Both the position numbers and the translations under genes were made by a program. Under the pieces are notes generated by a model that saw only the letters and a program-made list of their open reading frames with translations, did no database searches and was not told where the DNA came from. Shown one piece after another: positions 5,610 to 20,404 of a stretch of 20,518 nt of DNA (the first letter of the stretch is position 1; every line of letters begins with the position of its first letter). The DNA is from a virus. The stretch is from positions 1-20,518 of the IMG/VR virus record IMGVR_UViG_3300045125_000097; one strand, written 5' to 3'.

Positions 5610-7057
5610 TTAATAAGTAATATCTGGAATTAATTCACACGCACTCAAAGGATTTTTCAACATAATACCTTGCGTAGCTCTGGCAATACATTTCATATCC
5701 ATCAACTGGAGATGCACCCATACCACCATTTTGAGGACCAAAAGGAGTAGTAGAACCTGGTACATACCATTTAATTTCTGAACGTCCTTTAGGAGCTACT
5801 TTCTGAATGTTTGGCTCACCATTAGTTGTTCCAATATTGAAGATAGTCATACGATAGTTTTCAGTATAACCTCCATCAGGATGCTCCATACGGTGCAACA
5901 CTGCATCATCATACTGAGGCATATGAGCTACAGTAATCTTGATACCTTGAGGTCCTAAGAACTGCTTGTATTGTCCTCCTAAAGTTTTGTTTTGACCTGA
6001 ACCTTTAATACGCTCACTATCACCTAGAGGAATTAATACTCCAATTTTATCTTCAATTAATTTGTGGAATTGAATCATTCCTCTTTCACCTGTTAGAATT
6101 AAGAACTCACGCTCATCTTCAGGTAAAATGTTAATTGACAAGTTAGTCATTACTTCCAACAAATAATCTAATGTTAATGTGTTGTAGTAAAACTTATAAG
6201 TCGGAGAGATTTGCTCACGTAAACCTGCACCTTGCTTAATAGGGAATCCATTAGGAGCTTTCTGAGTGAAAGTACCATCTGCATTACTATTTAAAGTAGA
6301 GTACATTAATTGGTTAGCTTTCTCTTTAGCCCATTGGAAGTTGAATTCCATCTCTTGCCATTTAGTCCAAACAGTTACAGATTTTCCTTCTGAACCTGTC
6401 ATCTTAATTAACAAAGGACGGTCTTGCATATTTCCAGGTACTACATACTTCTTAGATAAAGTAGAGAACTGGTTACGCATTTCAAACATTGAGCTGAATT
6501 GAGTCTCACCATATTGGTCATTTAATGTGTTAGTAACAGAGTTGTACAACTTAGCACACTTTACGACCTGCACGAAGCAATTCAGTAGGAGTGAAGTATG
6601 CACCATCTGCACGCATATGACGAACAGTATATACCCAATTTGTACCATCAGGACGACCATCATCTTCAATACGTACACCATGTTCTACATCATCAAATGA
6701 AACATAGTCAGAAGCTACAAAGAACTTCTCAGTTAATGTAATTTCGTAAGTAGTCTTACCTAATCCTGGCGTAGCAGAGTTAGTTGCAGAGTATCCTACG
6801 ATAGTAATAGCACGACGGCTATCACCTTTTAACATCCACTTATATTCACCATCATGATCAAACAATTTAGTAGGGTATTTAGATAAGAATGAATCTAATC
6901 CAATGTATCCCATACGGTTGAATACTTCAGTTACAATATCTGAAGCTAATTGTACGTCATTTTGATAAATAGCGTATAAGTGGTTTTCAGTAGTTAGGCC
7001 AGCCCAAGACTTAGCGTAACTAACCTGCAAGGAATTTAATTTTTGTGTTGCAGCCAT
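5610..7057 (-). CDS. Major capsid protein (crAss-like, HK97-type fold expected)
   Basis: About 480 residues from ATG 7057 (MAATQKLNSLQVSYAKSWAG). It is broken once at about 6558: the first frame ends ..LRAGRKVC and the second continues ..CAKLYNSVTNTLNDQYGET; removing one A restores RKCAKLYNSV. Recognised stretches are ASDYVSFDDVEHGVRIEDDG, EREFLILTGERGMIQFHKLI, KQFLGPQGIKITVAHMPQYD and YEMYCQSYARYYVEKSFEC. These match crAss-like MCPs in order and length as I know them. The first frame stops at TGA 5635. Shifting by one base near 5637 adds ..ELIPDITY with TAA at 5610, the more likely true end. It forms the icosahedral shell and is preceded by a scaffold-like gene and a putative promoter at 8195-8226. 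Confidence 0.9.
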
Positions 7058-14532: not shown

Positions 14533-16607
14533 TTACTGATAATAATTAGTACGTCCTATAGCAAATTGTGACTTCTTCTCAAAGCCATTTTGAAAGAAGT
14601 CATGGTCTAAGAAAGTTTTAACTTTTTCTTCAATCTTAACATCATACTTACGCATTTCTTCTTTCTGATATAAAGCTACCATTAAAGCCATTACACGGTC
14701 AAAGTTACCATTAGGATTATAAAGAATAAGCTCTTTTAATAAAGGCTGGCATCTAATCTTATGAGCTACTTTAACATCACCTTCATACGACTTTCTAAGC
14801 CACGTATTAATTAAACCTTCTCCATATCTTTTAATCTCATTAGACATATGTATACCATAGCCTCTATCTACAGTACTACCTGCTACTACATCCTTAATTA
14901 ACTTAGGCTGCTTAGCAAGTAAGTGCAATGCTCCACAAGACTCAAAGTAAGTGAACACACCTTTCTTTTCATTCTCATATAAAGCCACAGCATTATAGTA
15001 TAATAAAAGTCGTCTACAATATTCATAAAAGTCATTTGCTGTTTCAGGTCTACCTGAGTATTCTGCTACAATTCTATTAGTTAAATTATCTAGAATTATA
15101 ATAGAACCCAAGGAACCTGAGTTTGATTTATCATGATCATAAGGGTCAATACCTGCAATATATCTACCCCAAGGAATTATACCATCTTCATCTTTAATAG
15201 GATGCTCGTATAATACTATTGAACCTTCTACTGAAGCTTCTGCTTTTAATGGGAAGTCATAGATAGGTCTATTCTTAGGATTATTCCTCCACTCTGTTTC
15301 TCCTTCAGGACTAATAATAACATCCCCTATCCATTCAGCATCTGCTAGTTTACTACTCTCTATATGAGCAAGAGTATACTGTAAATCTTTAAGTGGGAAG
15401 ATGTTATTTGTTTTTGACAAGAATACTTCACTAGGAACAATAGGATTGTACACAACATACTCGTCATAAGCACTAGCATCTTTAGCCAGTTTTTTCTTTC
15501 TCTTTGCTCTTCCTCACCAAGTTTAGCAAGATGGAGATTAGTATTACCAAGCTCATCTTTATAATTTATTTTAGTATATGTTGATGGAAAGAATAAACCT
15601 ATTTTTCCCCTATTCTCATAAATGTCTTCAAACACCAAACAATCATAAGCTTCAGGGTCATAAAACATTTTCTGAGAAGCAAGAGTTCCGCCACCCACCA
15701 TATCACCACCTGTACCAATGTAAAGAGTAGAGCCAAACTTATAATTATTGAGTCTTTGAGTGTTTTCATCTGCAAAATGTGATTCTATAAGATTCTCCCA
15801 CACCCCTATCTCTTCACCAATCTTTATTGTATTTCTACCCCCTACTCCCGCAAGAGGTTTATCTTTATAAACTCTAGGTTTAAAACAGCTTCTAGTTCCT
15901 ACCATTTGCCATTTACCACCTACTTTCTTTTTGTAATAATTTTCTACCTTCTTCCCAGGCAACCAAGTACCTGCTAAAGTCTTAGAAAAAGGAGCAGGAT
16001 AATATATCCCATTAACTTCCATACCGCCAGGATAGTTATTCAACACGTCCTGTATTTTAGTAATCAAGTCATTTACATAAGGAGCATTATATGCACTAAG
16101 CATAATCTCTGCAGTTTCCTTAGGTATTTCTCCAGGTGTATATTCTTTTTGACCATCAGTTAGATACTCATGTGCAGCTACATTAGCAGCCCAATAAGAT
16201 TTACCCCAACCACGAGGTCCCATTAATAAAAGATTTTTGGCTTCTTTATTGTATAAGGTTTACCTAAATCTTCTTTTTGTCTAGTCCTAAGAAAAGACCT
16301 TATATCTTCTACATCTCCTACCTTTTCAAATCCAGATAGACCTCTAGCTTCAATCCAATAATAGGCTAAATCCCACACATAGTCTAAATCCCAAGGCCTA
16401 TCTTTCTTTCTAGTTTTCTTTTCTCCTAATACAATAGTGGCATAGTTCAAGTAATGGTACAATTGTGGAGGACACCACGCACCATCAATCCATACTCCCT
16501 CTATAACCTTCTTCTTTTCACCTCTCCAAAAAGTCAAGATAACCTTGACTAAGAGGATGCAACTTAGGTATATTAGGTAGTACAAAATCTCTTCTATCGT
16601 TCCACAT
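14533..16607 (-). CDS. terL: Terminase large subunit (ATPase-nuclease DNA-packaging motor)
   Basis: About 690 residues from ATG 16607 (MWNDRRDFVLPNIPKLHPLS), with GAGGAG 8 nt upstream. Frame changes lie near 16545 (T5 for T4, giving ..YLDFWRGEKKKV), 16240 and 15490 (A-run). ATPase domain: NLLLMGPRGWGKSYW is the Walker A loop (GxxGxGKS), TIKIGEEIGVW a likely Walker B with acidic pair, and YIGTGGDM the coupling motif. Nuclease domain: IAGIDPYDHD carries the first Asp, ALYENEKKG the second acid, and NGNFDRVMALMVALYQ the last Asp, in the order of RNase-H-like terminase nucleases. It translocates DNA through the portal, whose gene follows, and cuts concatemers. Family call is firm. The gene ends at 14533. 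Confidence 0.92.
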
Positions 16608-17132: not shown

Positions 17133-17331
17133 AGTTTGGATAAGGTACGTATTCTCTAATTAAGATACTATCAAAATTTAAGAATGAGTTTCTTTTAAGA
17201 CTTCTTAATAAAGTACTTTTATCTGTAAATCCTTCTAAACAAGTAGCTAATTCTTTAGTACCTTTCTGTAAAGTCCAGTACCACTTATTATCTACTGTAG
17301 AAAAATAATACAGCAGAGTATACTTCTTCAT
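17119..17331 (-). CDS. Small DUF1508/YegP-like protein
   Basis: 70 residues, intact, beginning at ATG 17331 which shares TAATG with the upstream stop. The body reads LYYFSTVDNKWYWTLQKGTK, then ELATCLEGFTDKSTLLRSLK. This follows the DUF1508 (YegP) pattern of F....dg.W.W.L..g...ia...egy..k......i, a beta-beta-beta-alpha unit. The C-terminus (LIREYVPYPNYESY) is Tyr-rich. DUF1508 has no agreed biochemical role. The assignment is by eye and moderate. Stop TGA-free end at TAA 17119. Confidence 0.55.
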   Translation of the reverse strand: MKKYTLLYYFSTVDNKWYWTLQKGTKELATCLEGFTDKSTLLRSLKRNSFLNFDSILIREYVPYPNYESY

Positions 17332-17759
17332 TATTGTAGGTTTTCTAATTTGTAAATTGTACTATAAAATAATTCTTCAATACCATCAATCTGATTTTGT
17401 ACATAACTATCCTGACAGATACCTTTACGAGATTCTTTTACATAGTTTAAACAACCTCTTACATAATTAAGTGGAGTACCTGCTACACTATTATCATAAG
17501 AAACAGAATAACTATAGTCTAAAAGACCCATTTTACCTTGCATAGATTCAGCTAAGCTATCTACTAAATCAGGTAACTCATCATACAAACTTCCTAAAGC
17601 CATATGTGCAGCATACGCACCTGGACCTTTAGCTCTTAAATGTAAAATATGTACCTGTACAGCAGCAGCCATTAAATATGCACAAAATTCACCTTCTGAA
17701 GGATAATTTACTCTACTAGCCATACTAGTAGCTTTCTTTGGAGGAGTTGGAATAGCCAT
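17331..17759 (-). CDS. Helical Dps/DUF5856-like protein
   Basis: 142 residues, intact, ATG 17759 coupled to the GroES-like gene through TAATG. After a short Pro/Lys leader (MAIPTPPKKATSMASRVNYP) the sequence looks like a four-helix bundle: AYLMAAAVQVHILHLRAKGP, AAHMALGSLYDELPDLVDSL, PLNYVRGCLNYVKESRKG, QNQIDGIEELFYSTIYKLEN. The first helix has VHILHLRAKG and the second AHMALGSLYDELPDLVDSLAE, the pattern of Dps/ferritin-like proteins (H near the end of helix A, then D/E in helix B), also of phage DUF5856 proteins. Whether it binds metal is unclear. It could protect DNA or sit in the virion; function is not established. Confidence 0.6.
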   Translation of the reverse strand: MAIPTPPKKATSMASRVNYPSEGEFCAYLMAAAVQVHILHLRAKGPGAYAAHMALGSLYDELPDLVDSLAESMQGKMGLLDYSYSVSYDNSVAGTPLNYVRGCLNYVKESRKGICQDSYVQNQIDGIEELFYSTIYKLENLQ

Positions 17760-18145
17760 TAATTTAATTTTTGTGTTTTAAGTGATTCTTTATATTCTTT
17801 TTCATCCTTGATATAAGCCATATCTACCTTAACCATTACATCAAAGTCACGTATAATAGCCCAATCTCTATCATACATTCTAAATACATCTATCTGTCTA
17901 CCTTGTAAAGCTACCCAATCACCTACTTTTAACTCTTCAATTACAGATCCTGGTGTATGTTGTGTTGGTAAAGCTACTACAGGGTGTGCAATAGACTTAG
18001 TTTCTTCAGCTCCTGTAGGTAAATAAATACCACCTGAAGTTTTTAAGTTACGAACATACTCAATAAGAATATGTCCATTCATAGGAGTGAAATGCTTACG
18101 CATTTTTTCGTGTAGAACGCTTTGTTCTGTTGGTTGATTTTCCAT
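17759..18145 (-). CDS. GroES-like co-chaperonin
   Basis: 128 residues, intact, from ATG 18145 (MENQPTEQSVLHEKMRKHFT). Residues 20-110 match the GroES beta-barrel: FTPMNGHILIEYVRNLKTSG, then GIYLPTGAEETKSIAHPVVA, IEELKVGDWVALQGRQIDVF and WAIIRDFDVMVKVDMAYIKD. GroES hallmarks kept are the P...ILI start, the K(T/S)xGGIxLP loop (GroES mobile loop GGI), the KVGD.V strand and the final ..I.D.DV....V. It probably pairs with the host GroEL to fold phage proteins such as MCP, as T4 gp31 does for its capsid protein. It is larger than GroES (about 97 aa) by N- and C-terminal extensions (C-terminal KEYKESLKTQKLN). Confidence 0.8.
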   Translation of the reverse strand: MENQPTEQSVLHEKMRKHFTPMNGHILIEYVRNLKTSGGIYLPTGAEETKSIAHPVVALPTQHTPGSVIEELKVGDWVALQGRQIDVFRMYDRDWAIIRDFDVMVKVDMAYIKDEKEYKESLKTQKLN

Positions 18146-18664: not shown

Positions 18665-18869
18665 ACTTTTCTTTATTAATATACTTCAACTTCATAGTAG
18701 GAACAACAAACTTACCAAACTTAGGTAACAATATATTATCTCCTTTCTCTTCCCTCATTGTATTAGCAACCATTTCAAACATACTCCTAAAAGCAAGTTC
18801 TATTTTATGCTTTGGTATACCTGTTTCAAATGCTACTTTCTTGTATATTTCATCCAAATCTATCTTCAT
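18615..18869 (-). CDS. IHF/HU-family DNA-bending protein
   Basis: 84 residues, intact, from ATG 18869, which overlaps the TGA of the upstream frame (ATGA). It has the HU/IHF order: two helices (DLDEIYKKVAFETGIPKHKI, LAFRSMFEMVANTMREEK), then the saddle strands GDNILLPKFGKFVVPTMKLK, where the (I/V).L..FG.F.V element is the family signature. The long beta arm is short or missing (the typical RxGRNPxT segment is absent), and it ends KYDKEVSRNSRRLEKPD. IHF-like proteins are a known trait of crAss-like phages. Probable roles are DNA bending in packaging, replication or transcription. Confidence 0.82.
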   Translation of the reverse strand: MKIDLDEIYKKVAFETGIPKHKIELAFRSMFEMVANTMREEKGDNILLPKFGKFVVPTMKLKYINKEKYDKEVSRNSRRLEKPD

Positions 18870-19215
18870 TTCTCAGGTTCAAATGCTATATACAACCTAA
18901 ACTTGTTATCTTTAGGATAATTAGTCAATTTAGGATTTATACCATCTACATCTATAAACCCTCTATCCTTCAAAGACTGTAACAACTTATTAAATAACTT
19001 AGCATTTATCTTCATTTTTTCCTAATAGCTTCATATGTCTTCTCATTAAAAAGAAGCTCATTTAAAACTGCAGGATCATAATGTTTATGAGTATAATGAA
19101 GAGTCATTAAAGATGACAATATATCTACCTCTCCTTTACTAAGGTGTAACACTGGATTTAACCATGTAAGATAAGTAGCAAAGAATCTATCTTTAGGTGT
19201 CTTAATAGTAATCAT
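18866..19215 (-). CDS. Winged-helix-like DNA-binding protein (one gene split by an A-run indel)
   Basis: Two abutting frames: 67 codons from ATG 19215 to TGA 19012, and 49 codons from ATG 19015 to TGA 18866, which is below the usual ORF cut-off. The junction is an A6 run; adding one A fuses ..YEAIRKK to MKINAKLF.. into a single 116-residue protein. Joined, it reads like a winged helix: LSKGEVDILSSLMTLH, then EKTYEAIRKKMKINAKLFNK, LLQSLKDRGFIDVDGINPKL, and a wing KDNKFRLYIAFEPEK. If the stops are real, two coupled small proteins result, joined by ATGA. It is the first gene after the terminator and the putative promoter at 19221-19253, so a regulator role is plausible. Confidence 0.65.
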
Positions 19216-19220
19216 ATATT

Positions 19221-19253
19221 CAAAGATAATAGGAATAACATATTCGTGACAAA
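19221..19253 (-). promoter_or_regulatory. Putative Bacteroidota-type promoter of the packaging operon
   Basis: On the minus strand TTTG (19250-19253) is followed after 21 nt by TATCTTTG (19221-19228), a complete TAnnTTTG match. The start codon at 19215 follows the box by only 5 nt, so the transcript would be leaderless or nearly so. It lies directly downstream of the terminator at 19258-19284, as expected for the start of a new unit. Confidence 0.5.
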
Positions 19254-19284
19254 AAAATAGCCTAACTCATTAAGAATCAGGCTA
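19251..19284 (-). terminator. Rho-independent terminator (after the lipoprotein gene)
   Basis: The inverted repeat at 19258-19284 forms an 11-bp stem (with two G:U pairs on the minus strand) around a 5-nt loop TTAAT. On the minus strand it is followed by T7. It ends the lipoprotein transcript (stop 19311). On the plus strand the stem is followed by ATTATTTTTT, so it may also work in that direction. Confidence 0.8.
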
Positions 19285-19310
19285 ATTATTTTTTAAGCTA
19301 ATTTTTTACC

Positions 19311-19641
19311 TTAATATGGGGTATGTCCATTATAATACCACCTTCTTAAAGTAATTAAATCACAAGTATCCATACCTGTAGGAGGCATATCATGTAAATA
19401 AATAACTCTTTTAAAGAAAGTCCCATCTTCACAAGCTTCATTTAACTTATCATTACCATATATTCTTGATGACAAGCTTTACAGTTCTTAGAAATGATAG
19501 GTTTAATATCTAGCTACATAACTAATATTCTTCTTACCACAAGGAGCCATGTTCTCTTTCATCATTTTCTTTATTCTTACAACCAAGTCCTAAGAATAAG
19601 AAAAATAACAAGATAGTCAATAATAACAATAGTTTTTTCAT
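19311..19641 (-). CDS. Small lipoprotein with c-type heme (CxxCH) domain, frameshifted
   Basis: About 110 residues from ATG 19641 to TAA 19311, in three or four frames. The start MKKLLLLLTILLFFLFLGLG and the following C give a lipoprotein signal peptide with a Cys at residue 21 (LGLGC, a loose lipobox), then a charged linker (KNKENDERE). The body reads MAPCGKKNISYVA, DIKPIISKNCKACHQ, LNEACEDGTFFKRVIYLHDM and PPTGMDTCDLITLRRWYYNG. DIxPIIxxNCxxCH followed by a later MPP..........L..W...G is the layout of small Bacteroidota c-type cytochrome-like lipoproteins: CKACH (19469-19483) would bind heme covalently and the MPP Met may be the second ligand. Breaks lie near 19555, 19515 and 19463. Expected place: periplasmic face or outer membrane of the host. 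Role in a phage unknown. Not seen as standard in this phage group. Confidence 0.65.
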
Positions 19642-19688: not shown

Positions 19689-19699
19689 TAATTACAATT

Positions 19700-19940
19700 A
19701 CGACTAATCTCCATAGCCCTGCAAAGTTGGTGCCATTTTTCACATGATATAAGTAATAATGTATCATCTTAGTGGTTTGGCTCAGCGTCGGTGGAGGATT
19801 CTGCTGCCTCAATATGGCATCAATCTGCCCATAAGCCCCCTATGCTACTTATTCGGTATGGATTCCCTTTACCCATTACCACGGTTTTACGGGTGATACC
19901 TTTGTATGTTACCCTGTGACGGCTTTATTGATCTTTAGTG
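19700..19940. other. GC-rich intergenic island, candidate structured RNA or decayed gene
   Basis: About 240 bases with clearly higher G+C than the rest of the window lie between the minus-strand lipoprotein and the plus-strand cassette. On the plus strand I can draw several helices: GGTA-TGG (from 19855) with CCA-T-TACC, GGGTGA..TAC (19891) with GTA..TTACCC closed on CTTT, ATGGCA (19814) with TGCCCAT, and CTTTAGT/ACTAAAG (19933-19954). Short open frames exist on both strands (plus 19759-19896, 46 codons; minus readings in several frames), but GC-rich DNA lacks stops anyway and codon use differs from the phage genes. It matches no tRNA, tmRNA or RNase P landmark that I know. From 19941 to 20111 I see only AT-rich DNA and no certain gene. 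Confidence 0.4.
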
Positions 19941-20111
19941 CTTATGTACTAAAGCTATAAATATTATAATTATGATATTTATTTGTTGCGTTTTGTATTC
20001 AACATTTTCATGTGTATGCTGTTGATCTTCAAAAAGTTCATAGAATCTTACTGTTCATTTCAAAGTACAAAAAGCGTGCAAGTAAAAATTTTTATTACAT
20101 TTTTCAGTTTT

Positions 20112-20198: not shown

Positions 20199-20404
20199 AA
20201 GGCGTAGTCAACTCATCATAAAATTATTGATATGTTCCACTCTCAAAGGAGCTTACCTACTTACCACTACATATTTTACAGCATATAATATCAAAGAAAA
20301 ATGAAACTACTAATAACGCAGAGTTGGCAGGAAAACTTATCTCTAATTTAGAGTTAAGAAAGAATGACAATGGCGAGTTTTATGTGTGGAACGGGAAATT
20401 ATAA
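20195..20404 (+). CDS. Small plus-strand protein with SD start, function unknown (internally broken)
   Basis: A start at ATG 20195 (MKGVVNSS) has a strong AAGGAG 8 nt upstream. The same frame, 70 codons long, ends at TAA 20402-20404 and its last two thirds are clearly coding: YVPLSKELTYLPLHILQHII, SKKNETTNNAELAGKLISNL, ELRKNDNGEFYVWNGKL. In between, codons 9 and 12 are TAA and TGA. Reading one base over across 20210-20237 gives THHKIIDM, so two compensating indels would heal the gene to about 70 residues. The predicted protein is short, mostly helical and mildly basic; no domain recognised. Its stop codon lies in the loop of the first terminator hairpin. Confidence 0.55.

Follow-up and report, generated by a model that had tools for sequence, protein, structure and literature searches.

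The question raised by a GC-rich island in the genome of a phage is what it encodes and which of the transcription units around it it serves. The window analysed here, 20,518 bases long, is an entire virus record from IMG/VR, and the island lies at 19700-19940. The terminase, portal and head proteins of the record match phage families. The terminase and portal are of the Crassvirales type (phrog_6681, phrog_6547), and the terminase is ∼44% identical to that of cr10_1 and other gut crAss phages. The phage thus appears to be crAss-like, an assignment made from its genes. The late module (terminase, portal and capsid genes) is on the minus strand and heads leftwards from the island. A small plus-strand gene, common to relatives, lies beyond the island and ends near 20404; the island is therefore situated between opposing transcription units, as had been predicted. 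It is proposed, with a probability of about 0.6, that the island is a minus-strand copy of a conserved structured RNA found at the head of the late genes.

Composition, reading frames and fold of the island

The GC content of the island is 43.6%, compared with a mean of 32.5% (sd 4.0) over all 200-base segments of the record, and the predicted jump above A + T-rich surroundings is real. Its best 200-base stretch, 19701-19900 (45%), is surpassed in the record by one other GC peak, at 2431-2630 (46%), outside the island. No open reading frame of at least 50 amino acids extends across the island, in agreement with the original prediction that it holds no convincing gene. Neither Rfam nor ARAGORN recognised an RNA family or a tRNA in the window.

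The island had also been described as hairpin-rich. The window alone does not show this: the plus-strand fold of a 276 nt segment has a z-score of -1.80 (8/200 shuffles as good) and the minus-strand fold one of +0.20 (112/200). Single-sequence energy decides nothing here, because true members of the family described below also score near zero. The evidence for structure is provided by the relatives, and concerns the minus strand.

A conserved RNA in related contigs

Relatives were collected by a terminase search, which gave 32 contigs. Three of these (L003, L006 and L028) align with the window through base 19699, where blastn similarity ends, and the plus-strand gene past the island is common to L006 and, weakly, L003. 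Between the shared flanks, L003 and L006 display a GC-richer block with short words as on the minus strand of the window. In more distant contigs (L010, L012, L014-L018, L021, L022, L024 and L027) the corresponding place, flanked by a small open reading frame (MILQLDPMIPIFSIEH...) and by the first late gene (MITIKTPKDRFFATYLTWLNP...), holds a conserved block.

The core search pattern GGCTAAGGGTN{0,4}GATNGAGANGCC, run on IMG/VR, matched 19 contigs, 16 of the type of these more distant contigs and three (L173, L180 and L184) of another lineage. Together with L003 and L006, the total is 21 IMG/VR contigs with the RNA, from two lineages, the L003/L027 types and the L173 type. There is one copy per contig, and in each lineage the same strand carries a crAss-type terminase farther downstream. 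The first late gene was found in 18 contigs and the RNA is at the same place in 17 of them; the remaining contig, L028, stops at the edge of the RNA. The two lineages differ in their first late genes and neighbours, and the position of the RNA before the late module is kept. A core pattern specific to the window matched no further contig.

Covariance model R2 matches 11 of 14 IMG/VR records tested. The three misses are L028, which ends at the edge of the RNA, L026, which is seemingly cut before the place, and L033, a distant relative. R2 gave no match in any of 14 phage records with names (crAss001, DAC17, cr10_1, FpV21, phi4:1, ProJPt-Bp1 and others), a set that includes no known positive, and nucleotide searches of named phages gave short marginal matches or nothing. 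Two further scans yielded candidates that were dropped. Matches of the loose motif GGTAAAA...AGACGA at new loci, among those listed, were read as chance matches in coding sequence, and the one match in a scan of genome contigs is, judging by its sequence, in a bacterial coding region.

A conserved 70-residue protein with no family assigned adjoins the RNA (L003, 1196-1411, minus strand; L027, 4031-4255, plus strand). The orientation of its gene relative to the RNA is opposite in the two groups, and the gene was not found in the window.

Secondary structure and covariation

The conserved RNA is ∼300-450 nt long. Eight members, with the window excluded, were aligned with MAFFT; the RNAalifold consensus has 54 pairs, 29 of which are changed on both sides in at least one sequence. 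Covariance model R1, built from four sequences, matches L003 (E-value 5e-10), L180 (1.3e-9), L173 (4.5e-9), L006 (7.5e-9) and L010 (3e-5), these E-values being rough. The R1 search gave 19 matches, and 16 rows were kept in the alignment; the three not used were a second match in L014 (10.6 bits) and two near-duplicates, L016 and L184. L017, L018 and L177 were outside the R1 search set; L017 and L177 are matched by R2.

The original prediction had suggested covariation analysis of homologous loci as a check, and compensatory changes are present. In the 161-position core of 15 distinct sequences, an alignment that leans toward structure because it was fitted to structure, standard pairs fill 98.7% of the 475 cells and 24 of the 33 pairs are changed on both sides. 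The covariation score is 0.567, against 0.152 +/- 0.017 for shuffles (0/500 reach 0.567) and at most 0.140 for a slid-partner control.

The helices comprise a 5′ hairpin with outer and inner parts, a long closing helix, three inner helices and a hairpin within GGUAAAA...AGACGA. The core is multi-branched, with invariant loops GGCUAAGGGUUGAUAGAGAUGCC and GGUAAAA...AGACGA, and is followed in the relatives by a conserved tail. Among the unpaired positions, those of AGACGA and of UAAGGGUUGAUAGAGAU, which sits in the loop flanked by GGC and GCC, are near-invariant. Kept pairs include G-U pairs. From these comparisons, the locus is a new structured-RNA family of crAss-like phages, on the minus strand of the window.

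Transcription signals and possible function

Signals for transcription were searched at 16 loci with TAnnTTTG, which we take to be the consensus of the Bacteroidota -7 promoter element, and with a full promoter pattern, TTG-N17-24-TAnnTTTG. Upstream of the core, the -7 element is present at 15/16 loci (2.7 expected) and the full pattern at 10/16 (0.45 expected). A second promoter match is located within 900 bases downstream at 9/16 loci. A near-identical terminator follows the RNA at 7/16 loci by pattern, with a variant before the first late gene in L003; a conserved terminator separates the RNA from the late operon at eight loci and in the window. Among the 16 loci it was not recognised in L021, L022, L024, L027 and L181. 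Upstream of the island in the window there is no clear promoter match. RNA, promoter elements and terminators all face the minus-strand late module, which speaks against the proposal that the island is a leader for the plus-strand cassette.

To our knowledge, little is established about how late genes are switched on in crAss-like phages. In the relatives, the RNA would start directly after a host-type (Bacteroidota sigma) promoter and fold into hairpins and the multi-branched core; the terminator, the second promoter and the late genes follow. In the lineage of the window, a lipoprotein gene separates the RNA from the terminator. The RNA is presumably transcribed, and it might act in cis on RNA polymerase to allow passage through the terminator into the late operon. 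A cis-acting leader that controls transcription into the late operon is the first choice, if a tentative one, because of the order promoter, RNA, terminator and late genes, which is found in two lineages whose first late genes differ, and because of the place of the RNA before protein genes in the window lineage. The wider proposal, that RNAs of this size control how host RNA polymerase enters the operon of virion genes, as an RNA-based late switch that replaces or stands beside a protein antiterminator, is more doubtful. Read-through is not needed at the 9/16 loci where the late operon has a promoter-like element of its own.

The same signals can be read in another way, and about equally well. 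The RNA may be a free-standing phage product that acts in trans, as a protein scaffold or a regulator of host RNA or polymerase, and that lies before the late operon by chance; the terminator would then end the RNA and the late operon would be under its own promoter. The RNA has a promoter and a terminator of its own, and another promoter precedes the late gene; these are consistent with this reading, as are the single copy per contig and the invariant unpaired loops, which resemble those of partner-binding RNAs. On the other hand, both lineages keep the RNA in front of the late module, and in L003, L006 and the window there are protein genes between the RNA and the late operon, and these precede the terminator.

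Whether the RNA acts on RNA polymerase, binds a phage protein or functions in trans, a late-module RNA with invariant loops, in two lineages with different neighbours, represents a concrete target for functional tests. It may help to time the switch-on of virion-building genes in environmental crAss-like phages.

The copy in the window

On its minus strand, the island aligns with L006 with a local alignment score of 54 (shuffles 25.5 +/- 3.8, 0/300) and with L003 with a score of 45 (24.7 +/- 3.6, 0/300). Without the last 75 bases, the scores are 43 for L006 (0/300 shuffles) and 32 for L003 (13/300). The syntenic spot is the best-aligning place in the stretches of L003 and L006 examined, and 2000 random segments of other loci score at most 38 in the same comparison. 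No significant local alignment was found with six other family members. The similarity to L003 and L006 is limited to the 3′ half of the RNA. Position and strand agree as well: the flank through 19699 is common to L003, L006 and L028, and the plus-strand gene is on the opposite side. Sequence and position together make it probable that the island descends from the conserved RNA.

Features of the window are listed in Table 1.

Table 1. Positions of features discussed in the text
Feature	Position	Strand	Basis
Capsid gene, split over two frames	6551-7057 + 5635-6681	minus	
Terminase gene, split over two frames	15360-16223 + 14533-15453	minus	
First late-operon gene (MITIKTPKDRFFATYLTWLNP...), frame-broken	18869..19215	minus	tblastn, two frames; 18 relatives
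TATCTTTG, match to putative Bacteroidota -7 element, directly before first late gene	19221..19228	minus	read from sequence; same place in L003
Predicted intrinsic terminator, between RNA/lipoprotein unit and late operon	19258..19284	minus	terminator scan; same element in L015, L003
Frame-broken gene for lipoprotein-like product (CxxCH motif), first protein gene after RNA	19311..19641	minus	tblastn; start codon read from sequence
RNA 3′ half, GGCTTATGGG to tail GCAGGGCTATGG	19711..19837	minus	aligns with core and tail of L003/L006
Island 5′ half, at position of relatives' 5′ domain, without detectable similarity	19838..19932	minus	position only; alignment starts at 19837
Predicted 7 bp hairpin CTTTAGT/ACTAAAG, at place of relatives' conserved first hairpin (loop there CCGTAA)	19933..19954	minus	predicted fold; correspondence inferred by position

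The covariance models R1, R2 and R3, the last made from L003 and L006 only, do not detect the copy in the window. The best match of R3 in the window is elsewhere, at 15515-15622 (10.3 bits), against a score of 3.2 for the island; R3 does find L027. The predicted structured phage RNA is thus upheld for the locus by covariation in the relatives, and the window copy itself goes unrecognised. One set of helices proposed for the window (GUAUCA/UGAUAC, GUGGU/ACCAC) was rejected, as pairing between the two halves of the 5′ part of the island is no better than in shuffles (139/500 as good), and no structure is claimed for the window copy for this reason. The same test is also weak for true members (60, 16 and 224 of 500 shuffles for L003, L006 and L027, respectively).

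Given that no covariance model matches, the window copy is called a diverged descendant and not a demonstrated functional member; by sequence comparison, what the window carries is a copy of the RNA that has diverged, recombined or degenerated. That it is a degenerate or recombined remnant, from a real family whose conserved fold has been lost here, is a rather unlikely reading. It would explain the lack of a covariance-model match, the unrelated 5′ half, and the weak similarity of the island where flanking genes are 81-85% identical to those of L003. Yet GC content and some conserved words have been retained, and indel errors of the record may add to the damage.

Other readings of the island

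The place of the island between divergent modules would suit a DNA element with secondary structure, such as a replication origin or a packaging or recombination site. Nothing was found in favour of the origin-like element that had been suggested, and this reading is very improbable because the fixed orientation, the upstream promoter and downstream terminator, and the G-U pairs point to RNA. Least credible of all is a decayed minus-strand protein gene, which had been considered on the basis of short protein-like words in different frames and which frameshifts elsewhere in the record might seem to favour: the homologues maintain their helices through paired substitutions, differ in length by single bases, and have longest stop-free stretches of 36 to 85 codons across the region with no common open frame. 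We read the protein-like words as frame noise of a GC-rich stretch.

Comparison with known RNAs

Rfam had been named as a check on the RNA and gives no family there. In Rfam 15, which includes GOLLD, ROOL, 6S, RNase P and group I/II introns, no family matched at the gathering threshold, and permissive E-values gave low-scoring chance matches. No tmRNA or tRNA was detected by ARAGORN in the window, L003 or L006. Group I/II introns, RNase P, 6S and tmRNA were also weighed by their motifs, and were dropped for want of support from Rfam or ARAGORN. In a search of the published literature the RNA was not named; coverage of subscription papers and preprints was thin, so this is no proof that it is unpublished. 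Within the already known broad class of large structured phage RNAs, it is a previously uncatalogued family, and one missed by current annotation (Rfam 15).

GOLLD and ROOL are similar in being structured, phage-borne and one per genome; they are large phage or prophage RNAs without known function. They are described as lying close to tRNA islands in many cases (PMC12286853). The present RNA differs in that it is shorter, matches neither in Rfam and heads the late operon. A tmRNA of similar length (386 nt) is present in the related phage cr10_1, which R2 does not match; cr10_1 (L205), a gut crAss-like phage, has its annotated tmRNA gene at 26352-26737.

The late leader of phage lambda (pR′-6S RNA-tR′) has the same order of promoter, leader RNA, terminator and late genes, a likeness in possible mode of working only. 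The lambda leader relies on protein Q. The HK022 put and EAR RNA antiterminators are likewise compared only for how they work, from the order of elements, and put RNAs are much smaller.

Neighbouring genes

Four genes that are intact in relatives (the capsid, terminase, first late and lipoprotein genes) are each split over two frames in the window, and the record therefore probably holds indel errors. By tblastn, the lipoprotein-like gene matches L003 2138-2467 at 67% over residues 28-109. The window lacks a 403-residue fibronectin-III-like gene (∼1.2 kb) at 19308-19311; L003 and L006 have it, in the order lipoprotein gene, fibronectin-III-like gene, terminator. Within the late module, at 17331-18145 (minus strand), are a GroES-like gene (phrog_3188) and another that matches phrog_858, which is annotated as 'starvation-inducible transcriptional regulator'.
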